Shown: positions 6,623 through 33,496 of the stretch, piece after piece | Layout: every line of letters starts with the position of its first letter | Position numbering within the stretch: the first letter of the stretch is position 1 | From: Candidatus Buchananbacteria bacterium | GTDB lineage: Bacteria; Patescibacteriota; Patescibacteriia; 2-01-FULL-39-33 | Direction of reading: 5' to 3' | Assembly: GCA_903907165.1 (NCBI GenBank) | Contig: CAIVNC010000037.1 | Location: forward strand, 1 to 34,286 | Length of the DNA: 34,286 bases | Made by a program: the position numbers and the translations under genes | Notes under the pieces: generated by a model | Databases searched by the model: none | The model's input: only the letters and a program-made list of their open reading frames with translations | What the model was told of the DNA's origin: nothing

Positions 6623-8524
6623 CTATTGTGCTTGACCCTCAATTAGACTAGCCTCAAAATCTTTTTTGGCCTGCTCAATCTCCAGTAACTGTCTAGGATC
6701 GGAAGTAATCAGCTGATCTTCTGAATAAGAAGCTACAACCTTGATCGCCGCATGCTTAGCTCCAGCAAAAAATATACCTTCACCAACGCCGCACTCTAAC
6801 AATAAATATTTTTCACCCTCAGTCAATAAGAAAGTTTTTTGAACTAGGTTGACCCCGGCCGGCGATTGTTTCATTAGCAATTGCAAAGAAGAATTATTAA
6901 CAATTGCCTGACCATAAGGTGAAGTTAAAAAGTCATTAACATCTTGAGTGATTGTCGTTACGCCCAAATAATATTTACGGCATCTTTTAACTAGCGCGAA
7001 AATAAATTTAGCTGAATCTTCGCGTTGCATCAGCCACCAAGCCTCATCCACCACCAAAATTCTCTTTTTTATCTCGCTTCTGACAATATTCCAAACATGA
7101 TTAACAATCGTATAAATAGCTAATGGCTTTAATTCATCTTCCAGGTCTCTAACACTAAAAACCACTAACTGATTTTTCATTACTACGTTGGTCGGATTGT
7201 TAAGCAAGCCAGAAAAAGTACCTTCGGTATATTTCTTTAATCTCAAGGCAATGCTCTCGGAGCCTTCCATGCCTTCCAAAATTTGCTGTAAATCACTTAA
7301 AATCGGCGGTTCTATTTTGGATAAATCAGATTCAGCAGTAATGTCCTTTTTAGCATAAGTCTCAAGCAAAGCTCGATCAATAACCGAATCTTCTTCATAG
7401 GTAACATCGCCAATCATTAATCTAATTAAACCTTTAACCGTGATTACGGCATTACGAATAATGTCTTCTACTTTTGAATCGCCACCAATCGCTCTTGGTA
7501 AATCAAAGGGATTAATTTTACTTTCAGAATTCAGTGAAACATCAATATAAGTTCCACCCACCGATTCGCATAAGTATTTGTATTCTCGTTCAGGATCAAT
7601 AATAATAACTTCCGTACCAAACATTAAGCTACGCAAAACTTCCAATTTAATAGTGTAAGATTTACCGGCACCAGAAGTAGCGAATACCACTTCATTGGCA
7701 TTTTGCAAAGAAAAGCGATCGAATAGGATCAAGCTATTATTGTGACGATTAATTCCATAAAGTACTCCGCGATCCGAAGTCAGATCAGATGACACAAAAG
7801 GAAAAGAACTCGCAGCTGGTGAAGTATTAATATTAACCAAAATTTCTAATTCATCGTCAGCCAACGGCAAAGTAGAAGTAAATCCCTGTTCCGCCTGATA
7901 AAATACCCTTCTGGAATAAACCATTGTGGAGCCAAAAACATTCTCCACTTTATTGGAAACCGTATCCAATTCCTCTAGTGTTTTACCGTAAACAGTAATA
8001 TAAACAGCTGTCTGAAAAAAATGCTCCGTGCCTTGAGTTAGAGAATCGCGTAATTGCTCCATATCACGAAATGCTGTTTCCATTAAAGGATTTCTAGGCG
8101 CTCCCTTTTCAGCATCGCTAACTAGTCCCGCCTCAATAATGCCTACCTTTTTCTTAAGCTGCTTTAGAATAACTGAGGCCTTAACTGGATAGAAATACAA
8201 AGCAATGTCAGCCGTGATGTCCATATTAATAATCGGAGAAAACCAACCAACATTAATATATCTTGGATATTCTATAACAAATAAAGTTCGCGCAAAAAGA
8301 TCTCCCAATTTTATATAAGAGCTTTGAACTTCAAAAGAAGTTGGGGAAATTAAGTCCTTAATCGAAACAACGCCTCGACGATAAATCATCTCCTCTTCCA
8401 AAGTATCCTTGGCCGTAGCCAATTCTTTAACTTCTATCTCTTTAACTGGCAAAACTGGCTCGGCATTTTGGCCGGGCATAATCACGGGCTGATAATTTTG
8501 TTCTAAATCTTTTGGTTCAAACAT
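6623..8524 (-). CDS. VirB4/TraC-type ATPase, C-terminal ATPase part
   Basis: GINRHNNSLILFDRF, Walker A FATSGAGKSYT, VIIIDPEREYKYL, Walker B RILVVDEAWWLMQ, TITQDVNDFL. Confidence 0.9.
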   Translation of the reverse strand: MFEPKDLEQNYQPVIMPGQNAEPVLPVKEIEVKELATAKDTLEEEMIYRRGVVSIKDLISPTSFEVQSSYIKLGDLFARTLFVIEYPRYINVGWFSPIINMDITADIALYFYPVKASVILKQLKKKVGIIEAGLVSDAEKGAPRNPLMETAFRDMEQLRDSLTQGTEHFFQTAVYITVYGKTLEELDTVSNKVENVFGSTMVYSRRVFYQAEQGFTSTLPLADDELEILVNINTSPAASSFPFVSSDLTSDRGVLYGINRHNNSLILFDRFSLQNANEVVFATSGAGKSYTIKLEVLRSLMFGTEVIIIDPEREYKYLCESVGGTYIDVSLNSESKINPFDLPRAIGGDSKVEDIIRNAVITVKGLIRLMIGDVTYEEDSVIDRALLETYAKKDITAESDLSKIEPPILSDLQQILEGMEGSESIALRLKKYTEGTFSGLLNNPTNVVMKNQLVVFSVRDLEDELKPLAIYTIVNHVWNIVRSEIKKRILVVDEAWWLMQREDSAKFIFALVKRCRKYYLGVTTITQDVNDFLTSPYGQAIVNNSSLQLLMKQSPAGVNLVQKTFLLTEGEKYLLLECGVGEGIFFAGAKHAAIKVVASYSEDQLITSDPRQLLEIEQAKKDFEASLIEGQAQ

Positions 8525-8526
8525 AT

Positions 8527-9213
8527 CTAAACATTATTATTTTCTTCTAAACGCAATTTACCAACATCTACCATTTTTTCTCTGCGAGAGACCGTCGGAT
8601 TATATGTATTATAATACAACTCAATCAAGGCTTGGGTATCAAGAAGAGACGCTCTAAGACCCATACTACCCAAACCGGAAAAAATTTTATCTACTCTGGT
8701 CATTAGCCCGTCTTTTCTTTTCAAAAACTCTTTTTGACTTAAATCAATACTGGCCGTTGGAGAAACCGCATCGCCAATTTTGCCCCAAAAAGATCTTTTT
8801 TTATCAGAAGACGGATTATATTGAACAACAACATAAAATCTTTTGGTCATAATATCTCCCAGTTCTACCAACTCTGTAATATATTTTCGATACTCGGTCG
8901 TCTGAAGCTTTAATAAATCATTGGTTTGTTCTTTTTCTATTTGCTTTAAAGACTCGATGTATTCATCTAGATCCAATTGACGGGATTGAACGACAATTTG
9001 CAAAGAAGAATCTAGAGAATTCAAAAAAGTAACATAACCAGAAACAATAGCATTTTGTTCATCGTCAGATTTCAAAGCAAAATTAATACTAGAAACCAAA
9101 AGTACGGCTCGTAAAGTGCCGTCGTTTAAAACCACGATATCATCTCTAATTTCAGCTATTCTTAAATATTTTTGAGTTGACGGTGTTGATTTGTTAGCTT
9201 GTCTCACTGCCAT
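8527..9213 (-). CDS. VirB4/TraC N-terminal-domain-like protein (separate ORF)
   Basis: KYLRIAEIRDDIVVLNDGTLRAVLLVSSINFALKSDDEQNAIVSGYVTFLNSLDSSLQIVVQSR resembles N-terminal domains of conjugative ATPases. It lies immediately upstream of the VirB4 ATPase ORF. Confidence 0.7.
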   Translation of the reverse strand: MAVRQANKSTPSTQKYLRIAEIRDDIVVLNDGTLRAVLLVSSINFALKSDDEQNAIVSGYVTFLNSLDSSLQIVVQSRQLDLDEYIESLKQIEKEQTNDLLKLQTTEYRKYITELVELGDIMTKRFYVVVQYNPSSDKKRSFWGKIGDAVSPTASIDLSQKEFLKRKDGLMTRVDKIFSGLGSMGLRASLLDTQALIELYYNTYNPTVSRREKMVDVGKLRLEENNNV

Positions 9214-9219: not shown

Positions 9220-9663
9220 CTAGTTTAAATTTAAATCCTTTAATAAATCTTCTTCTCCGCGATAGAATCCACCCGTATCTACAATTAAAGAAAGTTCTGA
9301 CAATTTAGAGGAAGTGACCATCGTTCTTTGCTTCTTAAGTTGAATGATTGGCACTATTTTAACTTCTTTTATCTTAAATATCTTTTCCTTCTTCCAAACT
9401 TTTAATTTGGGGTTTTTCAAAGTAATAATCACATTAAGTAAAAAAACATGAAATAATTGACCCTGGATTTTAACGAAAGCAAAAAGAACAGTCAAAAGAA
9501 AAACAACTATTCCAGATAGAAGAAATAAGGAAAAATCACAAGTTTTATATAAGATAAAAATAATACCGCCGCCAACCAGCATTTCCAAAAACTGCCTGAC
9601 GGTTATTTCTCCAATAATCCTATCCTCTGTGTCCAAAAATTGTGGTACTGTTATCTGATCCAT
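9220..9663 (-). CDS. PrgI family protein (VirB3-like small membrane protein)
   Basis: MDQITVPQFLDTEDRIIGEITVRQFLEMLVGGGIIFILY matches the PrgI-type N terminus followed by two TM segments. Adjacent to VirB4. Confidence 0.8.
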   Translation of the reverse strand: MDQITVPQFLDTEDRIIGEITVRQFLEMLVGGGIIFILYKTCDFSLFLLSGIVVFLLTVLFAFVKIQGQLFHVFLLNVIITLKNPKLKVWKKEKIFKIKEVKIVPIIQLKKQRTMVTSSKLSELSLIVDTGGFYRGEEDLLKDLNLN

Positions 9664-9672: not shown

Positions 9673-11157
9673 TTAATATCTCAACTCTCTATTCAATTCC
9701 ATTATAGCATGAAACTCGTCAAGAGAGAGAGTGGGCTTACCTTCTTTTAATCTCTCATTTATAATATCTTCAACACTTTTACTTTCCTCAATGCTTTTTT
9801 GTCCAAGTAGTCGATAAAATCTATTAACTTCATTTTTCTTCCAAGCTTCTACGCCCTTAAATTTATTACCATACGACTGGCTCTCTAAAAGATTTATTCT
9901 ATCTCTAATTTTATCAATACAACCAACCGGATTAACGGCCAATCTTCTAAAATCAATCAGGGTCATCATTTCTAATTCCTCTATTGGACCAATTAATTTC
10001 TTAACCACTTTAATGTCATCCATCTGAGGCTTGCGAACACTCTGATTACTTAAAGATTTTGGTGGAACATAACTATTCTTAGTTAATTCAACGACTGGTC
10101 TAGCGGCAGGCAAAGGCTCATTGGGATTTAGCTTCTTTTCTTGGGATTTAACCATCAAATCCCCTGGCAGTTTTACTACCGGCAAACCGCCTTCCATTTT
10201 TATTTCCGGCTTTATTTCGCGATCAATCTCTTTGATATTTTCCTTATCAAATGAGGTGTCAATCAAAGATCTATTGTTCCAGCCGTTTTGAATTTTTCCC
10301 AATAAATCTATAGGCTGATCTGGCGTTGGCACAACGATAAGATTATTATCAGCTAGATTATTTTCCTCAGCCTGACCAGTGAAAATTTTATCTTCGTTAG
10401 TATTTTTCATCAACTGACTACTCGTCCACAATTTTTCCTTTAACGAAATTGGCTGGGAAGACGACTGATTAGCATTTTCTTTTTTAACAGGAAAAACTAT
10501 CTTTGACTCAGTCAATTTTGCCGATACAATTTTATGCTGATTTTTCTCGCTTTCAATAACATCTAAAAGTCTAGAAATTTGCTCATCACTAAAATCCATT
10601 CCCCCAACCTTCTCGCTTTTTTTCAATGAATCGGAAGTTTCCAAATCATCTCTGACATCACGAAGCTTGGCTATAATGATATTTTTTAAACGTTTAACTT
10701 TTATTTCATCTCTATCTTCATAGCCAAATCGATCAATGATTATTTGAGCTAAGTTATCATAATTATCTATTTTTTCATCACTCAAATCAGAATTTTTTAG
10801 ACTTTTAATTTCATCCTCATCAGCTCGATCAATAACAAAATTAGCTTTCATTCCAGCATTGGCCGTTGACCTAGATACCCGATTAAACTCTGACTGCGCC
10901 TTACGAAATCTGACTAATAACTCAGAAAATTTGACCATAATATCAGATACAACCTCAGGTGCTACGCCAGAGTTAGCCAAATCCATAGCAAAATCAGTAA
11001 TTACCAAATCAGCCACGACTAATTTAATAAACGGCAAAGCCAACTTTAAATTATATTTAGCTTCTAGACTATCTATAACGCTCAAAAACTCTGACGTCGA
11101 CATTTTATCGCGCAGTTCTTTGGGCAAGCTGTTAAATTTTTGTAAGCTAATATCCAT
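9673..11157 (-). CDS. Uncharacterised charged, probably cytoplasmic protein in the T4SS-like operon
   Basis: Complete 494-aa ORF, no TM segment visible, charged with Pro-rich middle region, near-contiguous with neighbours. Confidence 0.7.
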   Translation of the reverse strand: MDISLQKFNSLPKELRDKMSTSEFLSVIDSLEAKYNLKLALPFIKLVVADLVITDFAMDLANSGVAPEVVSDIMVKFSELLVRFRKAQSEFNRVSRSTANAGMKANFVIDRADEDEIKSLKNSDLSDEKIDNYDNLAQIIIDRFGYEDRDEIKVKRLKNIIIAKLRDVRDDLETSDSLKKSEKVGGMDFSDEQISRLLDVIESEKNQHKIVSAKLTESKIVFPVKKENANQSSSQPISLKEKLWTSSQLMKNTNEDKIFTGQAEENNLADNNLIVVPTPDQPIDLLGKIQNGWNNRSLIDTSFDKENIKEIDREIKPEIKMEGGLPVVKLPGDLMVKSQEKKLNPNEPLPAARPVVELTKNSYVPPKSLSNQSVRKPQMDDIKVVKKLIGPIEELEMMTLIDFRRLAVNPVGCIDKIRDRINLLESQSYGNKFKGVEAWKKNEVNRFYRLLGQKSIEESKSVEDIINERLKEGKPTLSLDEFHAIMELNRELRY

Positions 11158-11168: not shown

Positions 11169-12173
11169 TTAAATTTCTTTAGCCGCTCTCTTTTCTAATT
11201 CGGTCATCTCCCCTAGTTGGACTTCCTCATAATCTTGCGTTGGTGTTTTTGACCTTATTCTTTCTTTACCATCACCCATCTCCACATTATCCATAGGAAT
11301 TATTTCTCTCTGCCCTATAGACACATCGCCAAACACCTGAGTAAAAAATTTTAAATTACGATACAATTTTAATAATCTAGATAAAGATATTTTTTCTTCG
11401 GCTGACAGCTTCTTTGCATTTGTAGAATTAACTGAATATTCAGCCAAAACCACATTATCAAAATAAGCTGATCCAACCCTTACAATAAAATCTCTAAGCC
11501 AATTTGCAATTGTCGGCTCAAGACTCTTATCACCAACGAGTAAAGCTTCTTTACCCAATCTACCCTGATTATCTACAATCTCTGACAACAAAGCATCTTT
11601 GATTTTTTCATCATTAGCCAATAAATAATTCAAACCCTGATTGAGAGAAAAAATTGATTCCCGATCTTGATCGGCCAATATTACTAGTAAACTTTCATTA
11701 AACAAACTAATCATCTCCTCAGCTTCCTCTTTCGGATCAATCAATTTATCGAATTTATTTGTCAACTCTTCAACTAAACCCAATTGATAATCCTCAATAG
11801 CATCATTAAATCTTTGGATATAGTTTTGATAATCAGCTAATTTTCCACCAAGATCAACTATCTCTTGATTAATCTTTTTACCAGGCAAATATTCGCTAAT
11901 TGGCAACAAAAGCATTCCCCAAAAATCAGTTGCAATTTTTTTGGCTTGTTGCTCATCGGGACCGAACTTAGATTTTATTTCTGGCAAAACGTCAAAATCA
12001 AAACCAGAGATAACCACTTCATCTTCCAAATCTCCAAAAAAATCATCGTTAACCTGATATTTTTGGTTTAATTCTTTAAGTAGCTCTCCAGACAAATCCA
12101 TTTCAAAATAAAGCCTAGCTTCCTCTGAAAGATTATCTACGGCCATTAAAAATTGTCTAACGTTATCCGACAT
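11169..12173 (-). CDS. Uncharacterised helical, acidic protein in the T4SS-like operon
   Basis: Complete 334-aa ORF, no TM segment, highly acidic, 8-11 nt gaps to neighbours. Confidence 0.7.
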   Translation of the reverse strand: MSDNVRQFLMAVDNLSEEARLYFEMDLSGELLKELNQKYQVNDDFFGDLEDEVVISGFDFDVLPEIKSKFGPDEQQAKKIATDFWGMLLLPISEYLPGKKINQEIVDLGGKLADYQNYIQRFNDAIEDYQLGLVEELTNKFDKLIDPKEEAEEMISLFNESLLVILADQDRESIFSLNQGLNYLLANDEKIKDALLSEIVDNQGRLGKEALLVGDKSLEPTIANWLRDFIVRVGSAYFDNVVLAEYSVNSTNAKKLSAEEKISLSRLLKLYRNLKFFTQVFGDVSIGQREIIPMDNVEMGDGKERIRSKTPTQDYEEVQLGEMTELEKRAAKEI

Positions 12174-12181: not shown

Positions 12182-15100
12182 TTAAGTTGTTTCTTCTTCA
12201 TCATCGACATTATCCCTTTCTGCGCCACCGCTTCTGCTACCTCCAGCTGGCGGTTCAGGGACTCCCAAAAACTTTCTTATATTAGCAGCGCTTCTGCCGG
12301 CATTCTCTGCAATAGTCTTTGGTAAATATTCCGGCTTCCCGCCAACTGCCACTTTTAGAGAATTTTGTTGTTCTTCGTTGCCATTATTAATAATCTCCGT
12401 GTACTGCTTAGCACTCATTTTCTTCAAGTACTCCTTTAATTCCAAATTACCACTAGCCGATGCTCCCTTGCCAAAAGCTCGCTCAATACTTCTAACCGCT
12501 GCCAATTTTTCTCTAGACTCCTTGGTTCCATTTTTATCCAAAGCCTTGACAATCGCATCCTGTTTAGCTGCTGAAAAATCAGCAAATTGCTTACTAAACG
12601 CCCCCGTCTTCATACCTTGAGCTATCTCACCAATACTTCTAGCAATGGCATCATTATTCATATCCTTCATGCTATAAGTTCCATCAGCAAATCCTTCCTT
12701 GATTTCCTTTTGAGCTTTTGCTTTTTTCTCAACGGCTTCTTTGTATTCCTTACTGTCTTCAGTTAGCTTTTTATCTTTCAATAGTTTCTCTAGATCAACA
12801 TTAGCATCTCGGAAAATCTTGGTCTGTTCTGGATAATTCTTTTCCAAAAGAGCCTCGGCCTTACCAGAAACCTTTTTATTAATATAATCATTACCCCTTA
12901 CTCCATCTTTCTTGAAGGTTTCATTGACCAATCTGTCTCTTATCTGACCGGCTTGACTAGAGGAAACTAGTTTTCGACTAACAGCCTCAAGAGCCGCTGC
13001 CGCTTTAGTAAACTTATCCTTACTTTCATCATCCATCGTTGCCAAAACTTCATCATTACTCAAATCTTTGGTTCTATCTTGGGCCTCCTTCAATTGTTTC
13101 TCCTCATACTTACCGGCCAATTTCAAATCACCCTTGCCAGTTTCTTTTACGGCATCAGCCGCTCCTGGAACCATCTTATAGCCAGCATATCCTCCAACGG
13201 CGGCTGCACCCAATCCGACCCAGCTAACACCTCCAGTGGCAAGGCCAGATACCGCTCCAGCAGCAACCAAGGCTCCCTTGCCAAGACCATTAAACACTTT
13301 TTGCCTTCTATCAGCTTTCTTCTTAGCTTCTTCTTTAGCCTTAACTTCATTATCAAGAGTCGAAATTTCACTATTAATGATTTGGCTATTAACTCCACCT
13401 AATTTTTCCGTCAATTCATTTTCTTTCATCATTTCAATAACTCCAGTCTTTTGATCTGTAGCCCGCCATTCAGCTCTAGCGCCATCATACTGATAATCTT
13501 TACCACCATCACTAAAGTCTGATTTATACGCAATACGATTAACATTACTTCCGGTTGACATGATATTAATCAAATCATCCTGATTAATCTTCTCTGGCTT
13601 AATCTCTCCTTTTTCATTTTTAGCCTGCCATCTTTCTACGCCGTCATCGTCCTTACTTCGAGTATAAGTAACATTATCGTGTATGAACACTTCTCCTTTT
13701 TCAATATTATTCAAGTGTTCAACCTTGCTAAACTTATTATCCTTCTCTTCCTTCTTTGTTTCTAGAGTTTCCTTGCTCTTAGCAATTTCTTTCTGTAATT
13801 TATCAGCTGTAGCCTTGCCGTTTACTTTATTCCAAGCAGAGCTAGCCCCACTGCCAATTTTATTTGGCGCCCAAGCAACAACTTGCTTTGCCTTGCCAGT
13901 AAACTGCTTCAAACCAGCTGTCGCCCCCTCTATCTTTTCCTGTCTTAGTTCTTGCTTTTGAGTAGATCTTTGTTTTAAATACTGACTAGCGACTCCCTTG
14001 GCCGTACTAAAACCTGTAACATCTGAAACCTTGCCAGCCCCCCAACTTTTCATTTTATTTAAGGCGCCCAATCCCTTACTAGCCACTCCAGCTCCCGCTC
14101 CAGCAAATTGCTGGCTCATAGTCAATGAACCAACCAAAAGACCTAGAACAACTAGAAAATTAAAAACACCAACGGGAGTAGCCGTCTGAGAAAGACCACT
14201 TAGATCACCGGCATTAGCTCCATTTAAGGCATTACCATTAGCGTCTCTGGCTGTAGCTGTGAGATCGGCGGATGGCAAACCACTACTGGGCGTACTGGGA
14301 GTAGTTCCACCTGTACCGGCCATTATCATAAAAGAAAGGTAAAGGAAGAATAGCATAACTGGACCAAGAATCAGATTTTGATTCAATTTAGTCCACCATT
14401 GACTAACTATGCCCTTAGTACTATCAAGGATTGATCCGGCAAAAGCTATGGGCGATAGAATAATTAAGAACATCAAAGTGACTAGGCGATAAACTAAAAT
14501 AATAGTAATGCAAAAAATAACAACTGTCGCCGAGACAGAAACAATCACTGCAAAAACCATAGCTGTCATAACATCCCAAACACTAACACCGTTGGTATTT
14601 TTAATCGCATTAGCAACATTATCAGCATTCATCTTGAAAAAACCAGTTAATCCGACCGCCTGCAAAATAATCGCCTGACCTTGTAAGCTATTAATCTGAG
14701 AAGCGAAGGTTAACATAATAATCTGAGAAAGATCAATCAAAAGATCGGTCATCAACTTGGAAAAATTGATCATGACCGCCATCGCCAAAAGCCGAGGTAA
14801 AATGTTTTTATAGCTATAGCTAGTTCTCTGCAAAACCGTTCCCACTGCTGAGATCAGCAAAATAACAATAAAAAAGTTATTACAAAGATCTCGCACCATT
14901 ACCCAGCCAGTTTCTACTGCTGGTATGGTAAATGCTTTCCCATAATTAGCCACATAAACCATCACGGTAATCATCAAATCCAAAATCGAACCAAAAGCCC
15001 AGGCAATAAAATACAAAATATATGAGAGGAAGCTAGCAATAGTGCTGCCAGTAGTTGCAACAGATTTGTCTTTCCCGGGGGGCGGGGTCTGTACAGTGCG

Positions 15101-15274
15101 AGTAGCTCCGGCACTAGTGTCAACTGGTCTTTGACTACTACCACTACCAGCCGGATCTCCTCCTGGTTGCACTGCTTGTGCAAATACCCTCGGCATAAAC
15201 GCCCAAAATGCCAACACTAAGCAAAGAATTGCCAAGATCTGACGATATTTAAATTTTGAAGAGAAAAATTTCAT
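12182..15274 (-). CDS. VirB6/TrbL-like polytopic membrane protein with long cytoplasmic-type C-terminal extension
   Basis: Signal-like N terminus ending RVFAQA, multiple TM helices, then a ~600-aa charged region (KSKETLETKKEEKDNKFS...). Confidence 0.8.
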   Translation of the reverse strand: MKFFSSKFKYRQILAILCLVLAFWAFMPRVFAQAVQPGGDPAGSGSSQRPVDTSAGATRTVQTPPPGKDKSVATTGSTIASFLSYILYFIAWAFGSILDLMITVMVYVANYGKAFTIPAVETGWVMVRDLCNNFFIVILLISAVGTVLQRTSYSYKNILPRLLAMAVMINFSKLMTDLLIDLSQIIMLTFASQINSLQGQAIILQAVGLTGFFKMNADNVANAIKNTNGVSVWDVMTAMVFAVIVSVSATVVIFCITIILVYRLVTLMFLIILSPIAFAGSILDSTKGIVSQWWTKLNQNLILGPVMLFFLYLSFMIMAGTGGTTPSTPSSGLPSADLTATARDANGNALNGANAGDLSGLSQTATPVGVFNFLVVLGLLVGSLTMSQQFAGAGAGVASKGLGALNKMKSWGAGKVSDVTGFSTAKGVASQYLKQRSTQKQELRQEKIEGATAGLKQFTGKAKQVVAWAPNKIGSGASSAWNKVNGKATADKLQKEIAKSKETLETKKEEKDNKFSKVEHLNNIEKGEVFIHDNVTYTRSKDDDGVERWQAKNEKGEIKPEKINQDDLINIMSTGSNVNRIAYKSDFSDGGKDYQYDGARAEWRATDQKTGVIEMMKENELTEKLGGVNSQIINSEISTLDNEVKAKEEAKKKADRRQKVFNGLGKGALVAAGAVSGLATGGVSWVGLGAAAVGGYAGYKMVPGAADAVKETGKGDLKLAGKYEEKQLKEAQDRTKDLSNDEVLATMDDESKDKFTKAAAALEAVSRKLVSSSQAGQIRDRLVNETFKKDGVRGNDYINKKVSGKAEALLEKNYPEQTKIFRDANVDLEKLLKDKKLTEDSKEYKEAVEKKAKAQKEIKEGFADGTYSMKDMNNDAIARSIGEIAQGMKTGAFSKQFADFSAAKQDAIVKALDKNGTKESREKLAAVRSIERAFGKGASASGNLELKEYLKKMSAKQYTEIINNGNEEQQNSLKVAVGGKPEYLPKTIAENAGRSAANIRKFLGVPEPPAGGSRSGGAERDNVDDEEETT

Positions 15275-15280: not shown

Positions 15281-18200
15281 TTATTTATCCTCATAAATAG
15301 TGAATAGAGCGCTGGCCGAGCCAGTGGCACCCCAATTGTCAACCACATTAACGACCGCGTTTACTTTGCAATAGTTGCCAAAAGAATCCCTATCACAACA
15401 AGTTCCGTTCATCACCGGAGGGCAACTGTTAACGTTGGCGCCAGTTGCCGTCGATTGGACTTTCCAATAATCGTAGAAGTGATACATCTCGACCGGAGTA
15501 CTAGTATCTGATTTGTCGGAGAGACTGGCATTATTTTCACTATTGAATCCATCACCCCAATCAATAGTATATTTCTTGAGCGGCAATTGTTCGGGGCTGT
15601 CAATTACATTGAAGCTGAACATGACCGTGCTCCTGCCGACAGTAGAGGTCGTATTAATAAAAGCTGAGGCATTGCCGTTAACATTGTAATTATTGAATTG
15701 CACGCTTGTCACTATCGGCGAAACAACAGCGTAATTGGTTGGTGTTATAGCAGAAGCAACAGGATTTCTAATATATTCCGAGTCTCTCCAAGTCCACCAA
15801 CCGTAATCCTTAGCAAAAAGATTGCCAAGAGTGGTAGTGCCATTATTAGTGGGCTTACCACTTGCATCATAAGCACACGTACTGTTAGTAAAATACTGTT
15901 GGAAGTCGGCTTTGGACTCGGCTGGAGTTGGTTTCACAACACATTGATCATTTTTAGAACAAACCATACTCGGATAATTATCAAGACTACACATATAGCC
16001 ACTGACCGCACAAAAACCCATTCTCATGCCGCTATCTATTAAACCGGAAATAATATTAAGATTACTAGCAGAATCAACGGCCGAATAACAACCGTACATC
16101 ATTCCTGATCTTACCTGATACGGTTTGGGAAAATTATAATCTGGAATACTTGCGATCAATGGCTGACTACCTTCTTTATTAACATTAGAATCTATTGTTT
16201 CTGGCTGGTCGTTAAAAACAGCCGTACCATATGGATCATAATCAGTACCATATCTATACCCATTTGGCAAAACATATGGTGATCCTTCTATTAACCTGCT
16301 AAAGAATGGTGTTCCTTGGCCAAATTCATCAACTGCCTTAACTATTGTCTGACAAGAACTGTTATCGCCCTTAGTGATATAATTCTGCCATTGCAAACCA
16401 GTTAAATCACATTCTGGCGAACCTTCATAACCATCCTCCTTTGTACAAACAACCTTAAAAGCATTAGCCACGAACGGTTGACCATTAGTAAAATCAACTG
16501 TGGCCATAAAGAAGAATGGCGGTTGCGTAATACGATCACCGTGATTTGGCATCATTAGATGCCAATTACCTGTAATAGCATCTCTACCATAAACTTCATA
16601 TTTTGAACCGCCACCGCCGCCTTCAAAATATGCCAGATTGGCTTGCGTCCAACAATCATTCATATTCGTTCCAGCAACTGAATCATTGATAATGAAATCC
16701 TTGCCGTGATAATCACGAGTTAAATACTCACAGCTAGAAGTGGTATTGTAAGGATAATCGCAATTACCAGAATACTTACTCATACAATCCGGGCTATCAC
16801 TACCGCCGTTTATGAAACAAGCTTCGTCCCCAACTGAAAGAGGATCTAAGACTTTTGGCGTCCAAACAAATCTATTTGTTCCAAACCTAGGAATTTCTAG
16901 GCCAAGACCATGAGGAATAAATCCAGTAATCTTATTTCCAATGTAACATTCTCCACCTGGATTTACGAACTTTGCCTGACAAGTAGCATCGCAAGTGAAC
17001 ACCTTATTGGTAAATTCAGCTACTAATTCTTGACCGGTTTTCAAAAGAAAAGTATTACTTGGTCTCTGGTAACCAACGACTATATCACTATCATTATTCG
17101 GATAAGTCAATTTAACACCGTCATCATTCCCAGGAAGCATCCATTTATGTATATTATTAAACCAAGTCGGACTAGGCTCGGCGCCCTTATTAATTGGCTC
17201 GTTGCCAAAATAAATCTTACTAAACATGCTTTGCTTTCCATCATTAATACAATAATATAAAGGTGCTTGACCCTGATAAGTTTGAACCTCATCGGTATTG
17301 TCTCCTCTTACTTGATCAATTGGCCACCATTGCAAGCAATTTTGAGGATTTAACGGATCTTTCATTACGCAATAGCCATACCAGCTACTATAAAAATTAC
17401 CAGAGGAGATATAATTGCAAGATAAAGCATTATCAGTAGGATAAAGCCGACAGCTTCTACTAACTAGATTATCATCACTAATCGGCTGATTAGTAGTCGC
17501 TAGTCTGGGGCTTATTTCTACGCTATCAATCATAGAATAGCCTCCAGTTGCGCCGACATTTTTCATTCTAATTACAGTCTGGACACCACCGCCAGTAACA
17601 TGCAAGATAATCGATCTCCTTTGCCAGCCCTTTCCGCTCGCAACAACAGTATCATTACCGGCAAATATGGAGCCACGATATGGATCTGCGGTGATAATAA
17701 AATTGGCAGTACCATCTTGAGGCAAAAGATTTTGAGTATTGACTGCATAGGTCAAAGTGTAATCAATATTTTCTGGTAAATTTACAACTGTGGAAATAAC
17801 CGTATTATTTCCATTAAGTCTTAAATAAGCTACATCCCCATAGGCCTGATTTGGATTAACAACCACTGAGAAATATTCCGGCTTCCATTGAGCTGCTTTT
17901 AGAGGATCTTGACTGCTATCAGAATACCAACCAACAGGCTGATCTCCGTCATTCTTCTCATCAAAAGATTCAAAACCGCCATTAGGAACAAAGGCGCTGG
18001 TTCCTATCTGATACATTGATTGGAAGGGCAATAAACCATCAATACCCAAGCTATAACTGCCAAGTTTAGCATAACCTGATTTATTGACATCCATTAGTCC
18101 TCTATAATAAACATTGAGATCTTTTTCTGAATTGAAATTAAGGCAATTACCCTTTTCATCGATGGCTCGACACAGCCCTAAATCAAGGCATTTATCATTT

Positions 18201-21200
18201 CTGTTAAAAGCTAGGGCGGTTTGGGCGTCAGACAAGGCGACTGATGGCTTGGAATAGCTGGCGCAATAAAGCCAAGCAGCACATTTGCGATCTGGGGTAA
18301 CTCTTAATATAGAGTTGGAATCATTGCCAGAAACTGGCGATGCCGGCTGGACAACAATGTCTGTTTGTTGAGCGCCAAATTTTAGATAGTCATAATTCCT
18401 AGTACTGCTAGCAACAGCATAATCAACCGCATTTCTTTCATTGAATAGAACGCAGCCATTTTTATAATCAACTTGTCCATTGCAATCAGTTCTATTAACC
18501 GTGCCTGATTGGTAATAATAAACTCCTGTCTTGACTAGTTTAACCAACTCTTCAGCGCCCTGATATCTAACACCACTGCCATTCGCCTGAATAGCGCATT
18601 TTGTCTGTCTCTTATTAGAACTAGCGGGAGCAACTAAATAGAATCTAGTGGAAGCTTCGGAAGTAACTCCATTAGTTCTCGGTAAGGTTATTATGGTTTG
18701 CGATGTCGTAGTACTAATGACTGCGCTATTATCTGGAGACCAGAAACTGACCTCAGTACTGCTACACATCAACTTAATCACATAGCTGTTTCTAGCGAAT
18801 AATGTATACAAAGTATCCAAATCTAACTTTACCGTTTGGCTAATCGTACTAGAAGTCACATTTGATGGATCGTCTAATGTCCAACCGTCTGGAGGATATT
18901 GTTTCCCTAGGACATTTTGCTGAAAATTTCCGTCATATACCAGAGTGGTATACATATTAGCCAAAGGATCAATATATTCAGTACAACCATTGCTATCTGA
19001 ACTGCATGATCCCACCCAGCCATTATAATTGGCATCAGTCGTGTTATTAAAATTATCAAAAACTCCCAACGGTTGCAGTTTTTCTTTAGCTACCCCATAA
19101 CCAATAGTCTGATATGGAGTTGAAGAGCAAATTTCATTTGAATCCGTTTTATACCAATTATAAACATTATTTATCGCTTTATACTGGCAAAGTTTTCCTC
19201 TCGGATTTTTGAAATAAGAAGTTGATCTGTCTGATGTGAACTCATCACACCACAATTCTTCATCTTTGCACAAATCAGTTGAATACCTGTCGGGATTATT
19301 TTTTAGATAAACATTATCATAACCAACCACTTCGTCGCGAGTAGTAATTTTTGGCAAGCCATAACTGGTGCAACCTTTGTTATCAGCAGAACACTGGTAT
19401 TGTCCATCATTAACCAAGTAGGCCATGGAATCGGTGGCCACCGTTACTTCGGCAGCGTTTCCGGAATTAAAGGTCTGAGCTACCGGAGAGTTGGAATTAT
19501 GGGTATCAATCATAGCCTCGCAACCGACTGCTTTTGGCCGACAAAGATTGGAAAAAGATTTCAAATTAAATTCAGCATCAGATCTATCTTTGTAGGCTTC
19601 ACAACCGATCATCCAACCAGGCAGGCATCGCCTGAGGTTGGAGGGATCGCCAGCGGTCGCACAATAAGGAGATACGTTGGCAGAATAGGCATTTTGGCCA
19701 CTTGGATCCATAAGGTCGTTATCACAACTAAACGGCGTGAACCAAGTATTTTCTATGGCAAAAATATCATCCTTAACTTCTTTAAGCAAGACATTATCCA
19801 AGAAAACAACATCTGTATCGCTTTCCAACTGGAATTTTAACTTATACGAACCCTTGTCAATATTTGTCACAAAAATCGGGCCTAGCTCATAGTAGCGCCA
19901 TTCGCCGTCAACCTTAACCGTGGGGTAAGTTGAAGATTCATCAATATTAGAAAAGTAATTTATAGTACTGCTTCCCGCAAGTCCGATTGACTTAAAATTA
20001 AAACCACTAGTTGAACTGGATTTTGCCCAAAAACTCAGAATATAGGATTTATTTTTTTCAATCAAGCTATTGCCACCACTATCAGCAAGTAAACGAGATA
20101 TTGAACCGCCCGTACCCTTAAATGATTCTCCTCCGGGATAATTGGATTCAGTACTCAAAATACCTCCATCCCAATAACTTTCATTGGACCAAACTGAATT
20201 AGCCACCTCAAAATCATCAAAGGAAATATTGGCCACGTTATTGGCTTTATTGCCAGAAAATTCACGGCAGCCAACCGCGTCTTTGGAGCAGATTGTGCCC
20301 TCTCCCGGAATCGCCATATAAACACATTCATTGCTCGTTCTTGCCGTATTAGCCACGTTACTACCAGTCCACCAGCCATGATTTACTTGGCAATCAGACA
20401 TGGCCATGTAATCATTATTTTGAGTTTTGGTTCGACGATACGGATGGCAATCGTCAGAGACCGTAACCGCATCTGATATTAACTTATAGCTAATATCGCC
20501 ATTAACATCATAAAATTCTTTACAATTAGGATTCTGACTAATGGAAACGAAATCCACCGTGGTGACGACTGCGATTGTTCCAGGACTAATAACGACAGTA
20601 CTAGTCGTATAAGTCGTGGTTGCATAACCTCTTATTTCTTGCTTCAAGCAAATGCCATAATTATGCAAAGCGTTGGCAATGGGCTGATTTAATATCGTAC
20701 TACTTGTTATCGTTTCATTGTTTTGAAGATAACTCAAATATCCGCTTAAACCTGGCTGATGCGTGGCATTAAGAGCCGGCTGTAAAATATTATTCAAATC
20801 ACCAGGAGTACTTGTAACATCGCCACAATAATTACTGCCATCATCATGATAATACAAATTAGTACAGGGAGCATGAGGATTTAAACTGTCACTCTGGCTA
20901 ATTTTTAAATTATAAACCTTTAGCTGATAACCTTTAGTGTCACTGCCCTCCCAAGTATAGAAAACTCCATCAGTAACTCCGTCTGACTTTTGACAAGCCT
21001 TAAGACTGGTATAATATTCTCTTTGTTCGCCACCACTACTAACATTATCTAAATTAGTAAACTCATCGCAACCAGCTTCTTGAGCAGAGCAGTATTTTAA
21101 CTTATTATCAGCAATAAAACGGACATATCTGGAAGAAATAAAATCTGTCGGTTCTTGTTTATAAACTTGATATCCTATGCATTCAGAAGGACAAATATCG

Positions 21201-24200
21201 CTTTGTCTGGCAATACCGGGAATTGTCGGATCACCATTTTCTGGTGTATAAGCCTCGCAACCGACTTCATCTGAACTGCAAACTGGAGTATATTTTAAAC
21301 ACTCTGGACTGGAACTGCTCTGATTTAAAACTTTTAACAAGCTGGCTTGATCAACCGGCCAATCTCCATAACTATCCGTATAGCAATGATAATAGTCTGG
21401 CGCTTTTTTCAAATAAGTCACTTGGGAAGATAAATCAAGTGATCCGCCATAGGTCGTAGAAACAACACCATTACGTTGACTCGGATCGTATGAACTATAA
21501 CTAGATAAAAGAGTTGGCAAAGTAGCATTGTAAGGCACTTCTTCCAATTTAAGAGAGTCTAGGTAAAAATAATTTTGAGGGCTTGGCACATTAGAACCAT
21601 CATAGGTTTGAAATGCGATTTGAACATAAAAGGCGTCGCCCGTGGTTTTAAAAGTTGACTGGAATTGTTGGAAATTTTGTCCCAGAGTGGCATTCCAATA
21701 ACCAACAGCTAGATAATTATCACTATACCACGGACCAGATAGTCCATCATTGTAATTTAATTTATTGGTATATGAAACATTGTGTTGGCCATTATAAAAC
21801 ATGGACTCCATGGATGATGAACTAAGCTCATCTCCGCTGGCATCAAAAAATCTAAACGAAATTGAAGTAGTGGCAATAGAAGAAACCCCAGACCACTCTC
21901 CGCTCAAAATATAATTAGCATCTGGCCTAATTGCTATCTTGGGAGTGGCAATACCATTAACTTTACCCAGTCCATTACCAATCATCGCCGAGCCCTGTCC
22001 CTCACTACTGACAGACGACCTTGAAACAGTTGAACTATTTACTGGCATATTCCAATTTTTCCAAGAAACATTAGTCCAACCGACAGGCAAACCATTAGCC
22101 CAATCTTCAAATCCGCCATTTGGAATTAAATCGCTACTTAATCCAGCCTTGGTGCGAATAAACTGGCTACAACCGGCATCTTGAGCATCACATGTTGCGG
22201 CATCTCTATCCAAATCAATCCTTTGATTATTGTTTGGATCAACCGATCCATAGCCAAGGCTCAGCCAGACGGGATTAGCGGTGCAATTTTGATCAATCTG
22301 TTCCAATTTGAAATCGTCAAACAAAACATTGGCGGAAGTTTGATCTAAAGAAGTTATTTTGATAATGCCGGTAAGATCATTTTGATTTTGAAAAGTAAAA
22401 GAATACTGTTGCCAATAATCGTTGACATTGGTCGTGTCTAATACAACGGAACCAAGTGATGAGCCCGTAAAATTATTGCCGGATACAACCTCAACTTTTA
22501 CTCCACCCAATCCGCCGAGATTTCCTTTGGTATAAAAACTTAATTTGTAATTGGTACCAGTAGCCATTCCAATGCCCTTTAAGTCAGCGAAGAATTCAGA
22601 ATTATTAGCGGAAGAAAGTAACCGAAAAGCATTATTGGTTCTACCCTGACCGACAGTGCAAGAAAAGTTATTATTCAAATTATAACTATGAGAGCCATCT
22701 TCATCCCATGTGGCGGCATCCCAGCTTTTACTTCCACTTCCGCAAGATTTGAAATCTCCATTCATGCCGGTTAAAATATCTTCATTGTTGCAACCGTCTA
22801 TCCTGCATCTAATTCCCATAAATGGCACCGTACAAGTAGCATCATTAAAGTGACAACCATTGGGTTCATTGCAAGGCTTATCCATAGTAATGTAGCCGTA
22901 ATCACTAACACTATTCCATTGCTCTACTATACTATCGTGAATCGTACCCACTTGACATCCATCAGGAGAGACGCATTCAGTCAACTCAGTGGAAGTAGCA
23001 CTGTGCTCCCAGTAGTTGTCAACCGTGTTGTACGCTGTACTGTACCAAGAACAGCCGACATTGCCCGCATTACAGTAACGATAATCAAGGGTATTGGCTA
23101 AATAAGACTGAACCTGACCTTGTCGGCTTTGAAAAGTCGTACAAGTATTATATCTTGGCTGGCATTTCTGGCCGCCAAAATTAAAAATTCTAGCCTCTTC
23201 TGTGCAGTAACCATACGATAAACAATTACCTTTATCATCTTCTTCCAAACATTGCTGGGGATCAGCGCAATAACCATCTTTTCTAACTATTTGATCTCCA
23301 TTGCTAGCATTAGGGCCATAACCAACTCGGCGGCAAAATACATCTGGAGATTTTAATACCCAATACGGATCAACAAGATTTATCAAATTAGCATCACCAT
23401 TAAAATTTGGGACTGAAGCATCAAAGGAATTAATAAGATCTCCCAAGGTATAAACCCTGTCTTGCTTGGAAAGATACTCAGCAGCAATTTCCCAGCCAAC
23501 CGGCACGATTCTATACTGGCGCAAAATTATAACGCTACGCAAAGATATTTCTGTATTTAAGCTATTGACATTATTAATCTTTGGCGCAAATTTTCTATTT
23601 TTAATATTATCAGGCAAATCACTGACCAATTTATGACTACTAATAGCATTATATAATTCAGCATCAATAACGCAATCCGTTGGTCCAGGATTTGTAACGT
23701 CTTGACATTGAGATAACTTGATTAAAATATCATCACGACTGCCGACCTTACCATTATCCTTGAAGTATTTCAAAGAATTTTCTTGAGCGGCCTGTTCATT
23801 ATTATTTTCAGGTGAAGCCTGGGAATTTAGAATTACGTTACTATTACTCCTAACAGCAACCCCGGAGCCACTAGAATTTGAACTATTAGAATTAGACGGA
23901 TGGAACATGCCATTGGCATAGTATGAAACGGTCTGAGAAATAAAGGTGCTCAAAAATATACCCAAGGCATTGTAAACATCGGCGCCAGTTCCGGTAAAAA
24001 CTTTTTCAGTATAAGATTTTGTGGCAGCATCGCCTATTTTATTAGCTTTATCTTGATTTACCGGAGCCGGAGTTAAAATTTCTTTTGCATAATTTTGAAT
24101 TGGTTTAAAACCAGCCGCCAATCCATAATTTATGGTATCATTAATCTTCTTTTGTGAAACGTACTGATTAAGTTCGGAATTCTTGACCAAAAAATAACCC

Positions 24201-25045
24201 ATTTCAGTGTTGTTGACACTAAGGGAAGAATTATAGTCAAAGGAAAAATTAGCATTTTTTGATGCCGTTTTCCAATTATTAAACATTTTTAAAGCCGTAC
24301 ATTTTGGCTTAGGGGCTTTTTGAGCCAAGCCAAGAGAAATACCGACCTGAACGTTGAAATCTGGACTACAAAGATCTACTTTTATATCTTTACTTACCGA
24401 ATCAATGAAAGCTCCAACGGCAGCATCGCCAGTATTGATAAGCAACTGCTCTATGCCTTCGGTGTAGTATAATGGTTTCTGTCCAGTTGCTGCCGAAGCC
24501 AAGTAGGTTGCTGACTTTTCAGCAAAAGTTAAAAACAACTGAGTTTTCATTTTATTGAAGGCCGTAGCGGTAATATCCTCCCAAGTTTCTTTTTCGGAAG
24601 TTGTCAAAGCCTTTTTATAATCAGACTCCTTGGTAGTATAAGCGTTCATCGCAGCAGTATATTTTGCTGCTTCTGTCTGACAGTTCATACTAGCATCAGC
24701 TTTAGCATTATCCTGCATCATCTGAATAGCATTTTTTGTTCCAGCCATGTCAACGCCAGTTCCCAAAAAATATTTATCTACGATTGTCGATTCCTGTACT
24801 TGATCTGCTATGCCCTGAAAATCAGACTCTGATTCGAAAGTCTTACAATCCATTAAGGCCGCAAAGGCCTTAGTTAAGTCAGTATACGAAGACTCCATGT
24901 CCCATTTGGCTTGAACAGTCGAAAACCAAGCCGGAGTTAACACTGCCGCTTCAGCACCTTTAACAAAAAATAAATTAACAAAACTAAAAATAAAAAATCC
25001 GGAGATGAGAGCAATGTATATATTTTTAGTAAACAATTTTTTCAT
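15281..25045 (-). CDS. Giant (3254 aa) exported/surface protein with repeated Cys motifs, CBM-like modules and a C-terminal PKD-like segment
   Basis: N-terminal signal/TM (YIALISGFFIFSFVNLFFVKGAEA); about ten C-x5-6-GC-x2-[YFW]-type motifs (CSSDEVGCEAY, CSAQEAGCDEF, CSADNKGCTSY etc.); NGGFE...PVGW modules; C-terminal YTIDWGDGFNSE...YHFYDYW. Confidence 0.85.
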   Translation of the reverse strand: MKKLFTKNIYIALISGFFIFSFVNLFFVKGAEAAVLTPAWFSTVQAKWDMESSYTDLTKAFAALMDCKTFESESDFQGIADQVQESTIVDKYFLGTGVDMAGTKNAIQMMQDNAKADASMNCQTEAAKYTAAMNAYTTKESDYKKALTTSEKETWEDITATAFNKMKTQLFLTFAEKSATYLASAATGQKPLYYTEGIEQLLINTGDAAVGAFIDSVSKDIKVDLCSPDFNVQVGISLGLAQKAPKPKCTALKMFNNWKTASKNANFSFDYNSSLSVNNTEMGYFLVKNSELNQYVSQKKINDTINYGLAAGFKPIQNYAKEILTPAPVNQDKANKIGDAATKSYTEKVFTGTGADVYNALGIFLSTFISQTVSYYANGMFHPSNSNSSNSSGSGVAVRSNSNVILNSQASPENNNEQAAQENSLKYFKDNGKVGSRDDILIKLSQCQDVTNPGPTDCVIDAELYNAISSHKLVSDLPDNIKNRKFAPKINNVNSLNTEISLRSVIILRQYRIVPVGWEIAAEYLSKQDRVYTLGDLINSFDASVPNFNGDANLINLVDPYWVLKSPDVFCRRVGYGPNASNGDQIVRKDGYCADPQQCLEEDDKGNCLSYGYCTEEARIFNFGGQKCQPRYNTCTTFQSRQGQVQSYLANTLDYRYCNAGNVGCSWYSTAYNTVDNYWEHSATSTELTECVSPDGCQVGTIHDSIVEQWNSVSDYGYITMDKPCNEPNGCHFNDATCTVPFMGIRCRIDGCNNEDILTGMNGDFKSCGSGSKSWDAATWDEDGSHSYNLNNNFSCTVGQGRTNNAFRLLSSANNSEFFADLKGIGMATGTNYKLSFYTKGNLGGLGGVKVEVVSGNNFTGSSLGSVVLDTTNVNDYWQQYSFTFQNQNDLTGIIKITSLDQTSANVLFDDFKLEQIDQNCTANPVWLSLGYGSVDPNNNQRIDLDRDAATCDAQDAGCSQFIRTKAGLSSDLIPNGGFEDWANGLPVGWTNVSWKNWNMPVNSSTVSRSSVSSEGQGSAMIGNGLGKVNGIATPKIAIRPDANYILSGEWSGVSSIATTSISFRFFDASGDELSSSSMESMFYNGQHNVSYTNKLNYNDGLSGPWYSDNYLAVGYWNATLGQNFQQFQSTFKTTGDAFYVQIAFQTYDGSNVPSPQNYFYLDSLKLEEVPYNATLPTLLSSYSSYDPSQRNGVVSTTYGGSLDLSSQVTYLKKAPDYYHCYTDSYGDWPVDQASLLKVLNQSSSSPECLKYTPVCSSDEVGCEAYTPENGDPTIPGIARQSDICPSECIGYQVYKQEPTDFISSRYVRFIADNKLKYCSAQEAGCDEFTNLDNVSSGGEQREYYTSLKACQKSDGVTDGVFYTWEGSDTKGYQLKVYNLKISQSDSLNPHAPCTNLYYHDDGSNYCGDVTSTPGDLNNILQPALNATHQPGLSGYLSYLQNNETITSSTILNQPIANALHNYGICLKQEIRGYATTTYTTSTVVISPGTIAVVTTVDFVSISQNPNCKEFYDVNGDISYKLISDAVTVSDDCHPYRRTKTQNNDYMAMSDCQVNHGWWTGSNVANTARTSNECVYMAIPGEGTICSKDAVGCREFSGNKANNVANISFDDFEVANSVWSNESYWDGGILSTESNYPGGESFKGTGGSISRLLADSGGNSLIEKNKSYILSFWAKSSSTSGFNFKSIGLAGSSTINYFSNIDESSTYPTVKVDGEWRYYELGPIFVTNIDKGSYKLKFQLESDTDVVFLDNVLLKEVKDDIFAIENTWFTPFSCDNDLMDPSGQNAYSANVSPYCATAGDPSNLRRCLPGWMIGCEAYKDRSDAEFNLKSFSNLCRPKAVGCEAMIDTHNSNSPVAQTFNSGNAAEVTVATDSMAYLVNDGQYQCSADNKGCTSYGLPKITTRDEVVGYDNVYLKNNPDRYSTDLCKDEELWCDEFTSDRSTSYFKNPRGKLCQYKAINNVYNWYKTDSNEICSSTPYQTIGYGVAKEKLQPLGVFDNFNNTTDANYNGWVGSCSSDSNGCTEYIDPLANMYTTLVYDGNFQQNVLGKQYPPDGWTLDDPSNVTSSTISQTVKLDLDTLYTLFARNSYVIKLMCSSTEVSFWSPDNSAVISTTTSQTIITLPRTNGVTSEASTRFYLVAPASSNKRQTKCAIQANGSGVRYQGAEELVKLVKTGVYYYQSGTVNRTDCNGQVDYKNGCVLFNERNAVDYAVASSTRNYDYLKFGAQQTDIVVQPASPVSGNDSNSILRVTPDRKCAAWLYCASYSKPSVALSDAQTALAFNRNDKCLDLGLCRAIDEKGNCLNFNSEKDLNVYYRGLMDVNKSGYAKLGSYSLGIDGLLPFQSMYQIGTSAFVPNGGFESFDEKNDGDQPVGWYSDSSQDPLKAAQWKPEYFSVVVNPNQAYGDVAYLRLNGNNTVISTVVNLPENIDYTLTYAVNTQNLLPQDGTANFIITADPYRGSIFAGNDTVVASGKGWQRRSIILHVTGGGVQTVIRMKNVGATGGYSMIDSVEISPRLATTNQPISDDNLVSRSCRLYPTDNALSCNYISSGNFYSSWYGYCVMKDPLNPQNCLQWWPIDQVRGDNTDEVQTYQGQAPLYYCINDGKQSMFSKIYFGNEPINKGAEPSPTWFNNIHKWMLPGNDDGVKLTYPNNDSDIVVGYQRPSNTFLLKTGQELVAEFTNKVFTCDATCQAKFVNPGGECYIGNKITGFIPHGLGLEIPRFGTNRFVWTPKVLDPLSVGDEACFINGGSDSPDCMSKYSGNCDYPYNTTSSCEYLTRDYHGKDFIINDSVAGTNMNDCWTQANLAYFEGGGGGSKYEVYGRDAITGNWHLMMPNHGDRITQPPFFFMATVDFTNGQPFVANAFKVVCTKEDGYEGSPECDLTGLQWQNYITKGDNSSCQTIVKAVDEFGQGTPFFSRLIEGSPYVLPNGYRYGTDYDPYGTAVFNDQPETIDSNVNKEGSQPLIASIPDYNFPKPYQVRSGMMYGCYSAVDSASNLNIISGLIDSGMRMGFCAVSGYMCSLDNYPSMVCSKNDQCVVKPTPAESKADFQQYFTNSTCAYDASGKPTNNGTTTLGNLFAKDYGWWTWRDSEYIRNPVASAITPTNYAVVSPIVTSVQFNNYNVNGNASAFINTTSTVGRSTVMFSFNVIDSPEQLPLKKYTIDWGDGFNSENNASLSDKSDTSTPVEMYHFYDYWKVQSTATGANVNSCPPVMNGTCCDRDSFGNYCKVNAVVNVVDNWGATGSASALFTIYEDK

Positions 25046-25076: not shown

Positions 25077-26006
25077 TTATTTTTTTGTACTACTAGCATT
25101 GCTCAACTGCTGATCAAGCATCTGCTTCAACTGCTCATCGCTAATTTGATCCAACGTAGCCTTTGGCATGCCATTGGTCAGAAGTAATTGACGAAAATCA
25201 GCCATGGAGATATTTTTCAAATCATTTAAGGCAGATGTATTGGGAGCTGCTACTACTGAGGTTGACGAATTAGAAATATTTGAATTCGGCACGGCGATAT
25301 TGGTGGTAGTCGATAATGATTGCAACTCTTGAATCGTCTGATCTATGTCACTGGCACTTGGTGCCACGCCATCTGGCTGACTAACTGCCTTTTGATACAA
25401 GACAATTATCTGTTGATCATTGAGCATATCCACCTCTTCTTTTGCAATACCCGAACTAATTAGCATTTCACGTAATTGAGCTGGTGTGAAAGAAATATTT
25501 TGACTATCGTCTTGTCCTAATTTTGGCACAGAATTAATTGAGGTGGAAGAAACATCTACTGGCAACAAGCCGCAGTTATCTCCGATACAACTCGGATCCT
25601 TCCCCGCCAAAACTTCTTGCTTATCATTAATGCCATTACTATTACTATCAGCTAAATAAGGACTAGAACGATAAACATATGTCTCATCATAATCAGATAA
25701 CCCATCACCATCTGTGTCTTTATTTTTTAAAGCTTGCACCTCAGCCAAATCCTGGCTATCACTGACACTAGCATTATCCATTCTCAACCAAGTTGGATAA
25801 AAAATATTATCACTAAACGATTTTGCGCCAAAAAAAATAGCTAAAATACCCACGACAATCAAAACACTGATTATTATTTTTTCATTGCGATGTCGAGGTG
25901 GATTTTCCGCACTAGAATTTGATTTATTAACAAAAAAAACACTGGCGTTGCCGTCATTTTCTTCTTCTACTGAGCTATCCTTCTGAGATTTGCGCTCACC
26001 TTCCAT
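25077..26006 (-). CDS. Membrane-anchored protein with thrombospondin type-3-like Ca-binding repeat
   Basis: TM IIISVLIVVGILAIFFGA, then NKDTDGDGLSDYDETYVYRSSPYLADSNSNGINDKQEVLAGKDP. The internal ATG MEGERK (26006) is preferred over the track start. Confidence 0.8.
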   Translation of the reverse strand: MEGERKSQKDSSVEEENDGNASVFFVNKSNSSAENPPRHRNEKIIISVLIVVGILAIFFGAKSFSDNIFYPTWLRMDNASVSDSQDLAEVQALKNKDTDGDGLSDYDETYVYRSSPYLADSNSNGINDKQEVLAGKDPSCIGDNCGLLPVDVSSTSINSVPKLGQDDSQNISFTPAQLREMLISSGIAKEEVDMLNDQQIIVLYQKAVSQPDGVAPSASDIDQTIQELQSLSTTTNIAVPNSNISNSSTSVVAAPNTSALNDLKNISMADFRQLLLTNGMPKATLDQISDEQLKQMLDQQLSNASSTKK

Positions 26007-26039
26007 GAAATTTAACTTTGTGGATAAATTATTAATTAA

Positions 26040-26068
26040 ATTATAGCACAAAATAGCCAAACTAACAA
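26040..26068 (-). promoter_or_regulatory. Putative sigma70-type promoter of the TSP3/giant/T4SS-like operon
   Basis: Minus strand TTGTTA - 17 nt - TATAAT, 34 nt upstream of ATG 26006. Confidence 0.5.
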
Positions 26069-26128
26069 AATAAAAAAACAAAAGTTATCCACTATATTAA
26101 AACAGAAATTGGCTAAAAATTAAAAACA

Positions 26129-33481: not shown

Positions 33482-33496
33482 GATCCTTCTCCATTT

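Follow-up and report, generated by a model that had tools for sequence, protein, structure and literature searches.

The 34,286 nucleotides analysed here (the window; contig C37 of a draft genome of 755 kb in 57 contigs) encode a giant secreted protein of 3254 amino acids with 94 cysteines, which on balance is probably a T4SS-associated adhesive stalk, or probing arm, of the T4SS locus of the class ABY1; in this reading we infer adhesion, disulfide bonding and docking. ABY1 Patescibacteria are ultra-small, probably host-dependent bacteria, and the giant is a concrete class-wide candidate for the means by which uncultured Patescibacteria hold on to their partners and for what their near-universal, relaxase-poor T4SS touches. 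Its modules are defined, its origin can be traced to a short T4SS-slot protein, and its variable domains could confer host specificity. Giant and Cys-rich exported proteins are already known in Patescibacteria; one that belongs to the T4SS locus throughout a class is not described in the open-licence papers searched.

A class-wide giant with an export signal

The gene of the giant starts with ATG and takes up 28% of the window (15281..25045, minus strand). The first-pass annotation had placed a 3254-aa frame at exactly these coordinates and put it at more than a quarter of the window, both of which hold; the strand is to be read as minus, the plus strand of the same interval carrying many stops. 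Residues 1-33 (24947..25045, minus strand) form a signal peptide, judged by eye and by hydropathy, with cleavage at ...VKGAEA/AV, and in 35 homologues this is the sole recurrent hydrophobic segment. An LPxTG motif was sought in the C-terminal 120 residues of 35 homologues and found in none; the giant has no wall or membrane anchor beyond the signal peptide, which counts against a cell-bound reading.

Our alignments comprised 35 full or near-full giants and 80 from a genome collection, two sets that partly overlap through genomes in common. Full-length homologues span 2,358-3,923 aa. In a Falkowbacteria contig (L132, with 10-kb flanks) the homologous frame is at least 5250 aa long and runs past the fetched stretch, so some members of the family may far exceed 3-4 kaa.

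A 177-position profile of the N-terminal Cys module found the giant in 131 of 144 ABY1 genomes that are at least 90% complete, and a longer protein query found it in 56 of 57 ABY1 genomes. It is thus class-wide, and usually a single gene. Among 380 genomes drawn from the phylum there were 34 matches, every one in ABY1; the long region of the giant, sought outside ABY1 in this draw, was not found there. VirB4 was present in 73 of 77 genomes of the phylum. The giant profile had no match among plasmids and viral contigs. The nearest named homologues come from Candidatus Buchananbacteria, with further ones in Uhrbacteria, Magasanikbacteria, Falkowbacteria, Kuenenbacteria and Komeilibacteria, all of which, like Buchananbacteria, we take to belong to ABY1.

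The giant lies in a conserved T4SS locus

Across many ABY1 families the gene order orf334b-GIANT-VirB6-(orf334a)-orf494-PrgI-TrsD-VirB4 is kept, which places the giant in a conserved order near virB4 within an MPF_FATA-like patescibacterial T4SS locus. In the window all of these genes are on the minus strand. The conserved downstream neighbour is a VirB6-like polytopic membrane protein of 1030 aa (12182..15274), matched by the NCBIfam models CD3337/EF1877 and Mbov_0396 ICE membrane protein at E 3e-5 and 0.007, below their curated cut-offs. It is followed by T4SS-locus proteins of 334 aa (11169..12173), conserved in position in some loci, and of 494 aa (9673..11157), conserved in position; a PrgI/VirB3-like protein (9220..9663; Pfam PrgI E 4.7e-5, below cut-off); a TrsD-like protein or N-terminal part of VirB4 (8527..9213; NCBIfam TrsD E 1.8e-8, below cut-off); and the VirB4 ATPase (6623..8524; Pfam TraG P-loop E 1.4e-28). 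The upstream neighbour is orf334b (25077..26081), assigned by family matches and conserved position as a membrane-anchored TSP3-repeat protein. In ABY1 this apparently membrane-anchored protein directly precedes the giant, and in some other classes it adjoins KsgA; it may be the partner or the anchor of the giant. From their translations we also recognise neighbours in the window that we take to be comF, recG and radA, as fits published ABY1 T4SS loci. These three genes are known in ABY1 T4SS loci (PMC12102498).

Both the giant and VirB4 were found in 124 genomes, in 59 of which, mostly draft assemblies, they are split over different contigs. Of the 65 genomes with both on one contig, 63 have the giant 10-41 kb upstream of VirB4 and in the same orientation. 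The first-pass annotation had proposed checking whether homologues always neighbour VirB4/VirB6 and would have given up its reading had they lain mainly away from T4SS-like genes; they do not, and the coupling to VirB4 is overwhelming, if not absolute. The exceptions are one genome, G428, and family f23 (G357, G138 and G031), where orf334b and the giant stay together but apart from VirB6-VirB4. Two candidates for a giant without VirB4, G038 and G439, were dismissed, as their contigs end inside the operon and no real separation exists.

Some individual loci have peculiarities of their own. In the single-contig genome G484 (C1), orf334b, the giant and the VirB6-like gene are present and VirB4 was matched nowhere, which may reflect loss, divergence or an assembly gap. 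In G042 (C2:645682-694864) the giant and VirB4 occur twice in an inverted duplicate, with the VirB4 copies about 8 kb apart at its centre; the duplication may be genuine or may stem from the assembly. In G018, G449 and G471 (family f10) the VirB4 frame is about 1250-1300 aa long and is matched in two parts with roughly 2 kb between them, suggesting that VirB4 of this family holds a large insertion.

Invariant cysteine pairs in short, related modules

The strict motif C-x5,6-GC-x2-[YF] occurs 8 times in the giant, where 500 shuffled sequences average 0.042 and reach at most 2; the looser GC-x2-[YFM] occurs 10 times against 0.84. All ten motif strings reported by the first-pass annotation are found in the giant; its formula strictly describes eight of them, CRPKAVGCEAM and CKDEELWCDEF being near-variants only, and the cluster that it had placed at 18.4-23.1 kb measures 18974-23074. 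In order along the protein, all on the minus strand, these copies are CNAGNVGCSWY (23042..23074), CDAQDAGCSQF (22160..22192), CSSDEVGCEAY (21248..21280), CSAQEAGCDEF (21059..21091), CSKDAVGCREF (20258..20290), CLPGWMIGCEAY, whose loop is one residue longer (19592..19627), CRPKAVGCEAM (19511..19543), CSADNKGCTSY (19361..19393), CKDEELWCDEF (19238..19270) and CSSDSNGCTEY (18974..19006). They were identified by motif scan (CKDEELWCDEF from the translation), profile comparison and, for all except the long-loop copy, conservation of the cysteines. An eleventh copy absent from the earlier list, CQPRYNTCTTF (23132..23164, minus strand), begins at residue 628; it matches the motif profiles in register, and both of its cysteines are kept in 107 of 107 rows.

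The motif Cys columns are among the most conserved of the whole alignment. Both cysteines of ten pairs (628/635, 658/665, 952/959, 1256/1263, 1319/1326, 1586/1593, 1835/1842, 1885/1892, 1926/1933 and 2014/2021) are kept in all 107-115 homologous rows, the exception being one row that lacks 658/665. Pair 1807/1815 is misaligned owing to its longer loop, its second Cys being kept in 60 of 60 rows. Since the cysteines barely vary, co-variation analysis gives no pairing signal.

Profile-profile comparison of narrow 31-residue windows gave a probability above 50, nearly always in register, in 74% of 54 motif-motif comparisons, against 3% for motif-control and 1% for control-control comparisons; the motif windows were chosen for similarity and have the C-x6-C spacing in common, which raises their scores. 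A further candidate copy at residue 2188 was ruled out by the same comparison. The unit common to the motifs comprises ~17-20 residues: it opens with the first Cys and a short helical turn, after which come Gly-Cys and the beginning of a strand. The AF2 model (pTM 0.71, pLDDT 78) is beta-rich, and most motif sites in it are a short helix turn followed by a strand. On sequence grounds, then, the copies are best described as related micro-modules, short hairpins rather than whole repeated domains. The idea of repeated disulfide-locked modules, put forward in the first-pass annotation, survives in that the Cys pairs can be aligned, in register and invariant, within homologous modules, as in a stapled repeat protein; an alignment in which the pairs fell outside such modules, which would have spoken against it, was not obtained. 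What repeats is a short hairpin and not a whole domain. PDB sequence searches with the Cys modules gave no match.

Oxidative folding of the giant is plausible from the gene content of its relatives. DsbA-like Thioredoxin_4 genes are present in the genomes of 57 of 57 relatives, and 15 of the 57 have one no more than ~10.5 kb from VirB4, where about 3 would be expected when kinship among the genomes is ignored. VKOR is the usual partner of DsbA in many bacteria. Here it passed in 20 of the 57 genomes and not in the window's own family, a patchy occurrence on which VKOR was rejected as an obligatory partner.

Carbohydrate-binding-type domains between the Cys modules

After the signal peptide comes a mostly helical N-terminal domain (residues ~130-480; 23606..24658, minus strand, as are all segments below), with a conserved C226...C249 pair, defined by hmmsearch homologues and by a helical model of low confidence. 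Residues 440-560 (23366..23728) carry an LRxYRIVPVGWE motif and are modelled confidently, with pLDDT mostly above 90. The first Cys module (residues 565-690; 22976..23353) has 9 cysteines kept in all members and ends with the motifs at 628 and 658. The second (residues 1245-1390; 20876..21313), delimited by alignment and model, holds CSSDEVGCEAY and CSAQEAGCDEF, and the third (residues 1800-2025; 18971..19648), from motif scan, alignment and profile comparison, five motif copies. Profile comparison also aligns the larger Cys modules at 1245-1390 and 1800-2000 with one another (probability 93).

Between the Cys modules, identity to the window protein falls to about 10%. These variable stretches include CBM_4_9-type jelly-rolls, predicted by profile and model for at least two domains. 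One (residues ~760-925; 22271..22768) matches Pfam PF02018 (CBM_4_9) over residues 795-891 with a whole-protein E of 7.8e-7, above the cut-off, and matches the third jelly-roll as a profile. Another (residues ~1598-1770; 19736..20254) has Pfam CBM_4_9 matches in 24 of 29 homologous segments, and the model that holds it retrieves CBM16, CBM4 and CBM22 domains in Foldseek at target TM 0.60-0.75. A jelly-roll-like beta domain between these two (residues ~965-1195; 21461..22153) has a beta-rich model and a weak profile match to the other jelly-rolls, and three or more further inter-module stretches are probably jelly-rolls too, on weaker profile likeness. The assignment to CBM_4_9 rests on the profile match and the predicted fold; glycan binding is putative. 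In Pfam and NCBIfam searches the giant had no catalytic domain, CBM_4_9 being the only Pfam family to pass. The protein ends in a beta-type domain with WGDG (residues 3080-3254; 15284..15808). Its PKD-like appearance is by eye only, and a PKD identity was set aside after Pfam matched in 0 of 32 members.

Relation to a short slot protein of other classes

In 20 T4SS loci of other patescibacterial classes the operon is largely alike and lacks the giant. In 4 of the 20, which are among those nearest by VirB4, hmmsearch found a homologue of the N-domain in the equivalent slot, before VirB6; in the other 16 none was detected. The E values of the N-domain search range from 5.6e-14 to 1e-4 and include 1.6e-12 for L185, 3e-12 for L188, 4.6e-5 for L186 and 8.1e-5 for L187. 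The slot homologues are exported and cover residues ~130-480 of the giant, including the LC...PxC pair; the complete proteins have 286, 344 and 361 aa, while that of L185 is a homologous part of ~285 aa in a longer, partly masked open frame. From this homology to short slot proteins we read the giant as a slot protein plus an extension: it looks like an ordinary T4SS-locus protein to which ~2,700 aa of Cys-stapled, CBM-bearing sequence were added. Alternatively, the extension may have been lost outside ABY1 rather than gained within it.

Possible roles of the giant

We favour, as stated at the outset, a secreted adhesive arm of the T4SS. The giant would be exported by Sec to the cell surface, where the N-domain, as the ancestral T4SS-associated part, presumably holds it at the secretion apparatus beside VirB6. 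The ABY1-specific remainder of ~2,700 residues would form a beta-rich chain in which the invariant C-x6-C hairpins staple variable domains of jelly-roll carbohydrate-binding type into a stable, extended stalk. Contact of this stalk with glycans of the partner cell, possibly its host, would then let the secretion machine engage the partner. In a saccharibacterium, the T4SS is essential for epibiotic growth (PMC12102498). Of the first-pass annotation's proposal of an adhesin or T4SS surface appendage, the appendage part gains from the linkage to T4SS genes in 63 of 65 genomes and from the signal peptide, while the adhesive part is the one we would word as a suggestion. More tentatively, the giant could itself belong to the structure of the T4SS, as a tip or base component like VirB5, docked on VirB6 and extended into a disulfide-stapled, glycan-binding arm; attachment and secretion would then be done by one machine component.

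It is rather unlikely that the giant is an envelope or S-layer-like coat protein, simply co-expressed with the T4SS close to a busy stretch of the chromosome and without a role in secretion or attachment. A rigid coat associated with glycans would fit the many cysteines and the CBM-type domains, family f23 keeps the giant apart from the T4SS, and anchoring of the giant by the T4SS is our supposition; however, many ABY1 families share its place within the T4SS gene order, and other classes have the N-domain as a protein of the T4SS slot. Very improbable is a secreted effector, delivered into the partner cell, whose CBM-type and Cys modules act on the partner envelope. Some components of binary toxins and some phage tail proteins do figure in the Foldseek list, but the long alignments there (over ~300 columns) have an rmsd of roughly 17-62 Å and a query TM of about 0.1, a likeness of beta-sandwiches only, and on these figures the matches to toxin components and to ELAPOR1 were rejected. 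A Sec-type signal, 94 cysteines and the lack of any Pfam or NCBIfam catalytic domain also argue against an effector, and so does a class-wide, usually single gene, unlike variable cargo. Least probable of all is a nutritional scaffold unrelated to a host, in which the jelly-rolls capture polysaccharide outside the cell, to be degraded on the spot and taken up: CBM_4_9-type domains are present, yet Pfam finds no glycoside hydrolase domain in the giant, and its neighbours are T4SS genes.

Comparison with known systems

As we suppose of the giant, PrgB of a Gram-positive conjugative T4SS (pCF10) is a large surface adhesin from a T4SS locus, and it has been proposed to keep partner cells together (PMC12857230). 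PrgB, however, has an LPxTG anchor and a polymer adhesin domain, whereas the giant has neither (35 homologues; Pfam), and the N-domain of the giant belongs to a family of its own. A survey of T4SS in Patescibacteria looked for PrgB homologues and known adhesins and did not find them (PMC12102498). The pilus-tip protein VirB5/TrwJ resembles the giant in being exported, with a mainly helical N-domain, and encoded beside virB6; VirB5, which docks on VirB6, has been linked to adhesion (PMC12857230). The giant differs in having no VirB5 match by sequence and more than 2,500 extra residues. The VirB5 model PF07996 had no match at E<=1 in its own genome, Pfam searches of 62 N-terminal segments gave no match for the N-domain, VirB5 not being listed, and the low-confidence model of residues 1-440 had no match among PDB folds at E<=0.001. 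On sequence, a VirB5 identity of the N-domain was therefore set aside, and VirB5, like PrgB, is kept as a working analogy.

The large Cys-rich extracellular proteins of Peribacteria are, like the giant, exported and proposed to serve attachment (PMC4736985). As described, they include a cluster of 14 genes, with 7.2% Cys and a weak resemblance to Cys-rich repeats of Myxococcus, and the passages on these proteins note no T4SS link; our comparison with the giant is by description (PMC4736985). The ABY1 member Patescibacterium danicum has exported giants of 5-6 kaa, likewise proposed adhesins, with FhaB/DUF2341 domains and described without full-length homologues (PMC11809585), whereas the present giant is conserved in nearly all ABY1 and lies within the T4SS locus. 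With Pfam CBM_4_9 (PF02018), the likeness is limited to sub-domains of the giant, whose ligands are putative.

In patescibacterial T4SS, relaxases are rare and VirB2-like pilins occur (PMC12102498, PMC12857230). The genome studied here (G000) has three T4SS_pilin matches elsewhere, at C49:20917-24505, C32:4708-5244 and C2:10343-10540, two of them inside long frames of 1134 and 619 aa, that is, as pilin-like domains within large proteins. Near the end of the window (33002-33988, minus strand), two neighbouring genes, for proteins of 159 and 163 aa, form a tandem pair of paralogues with 43% identity.
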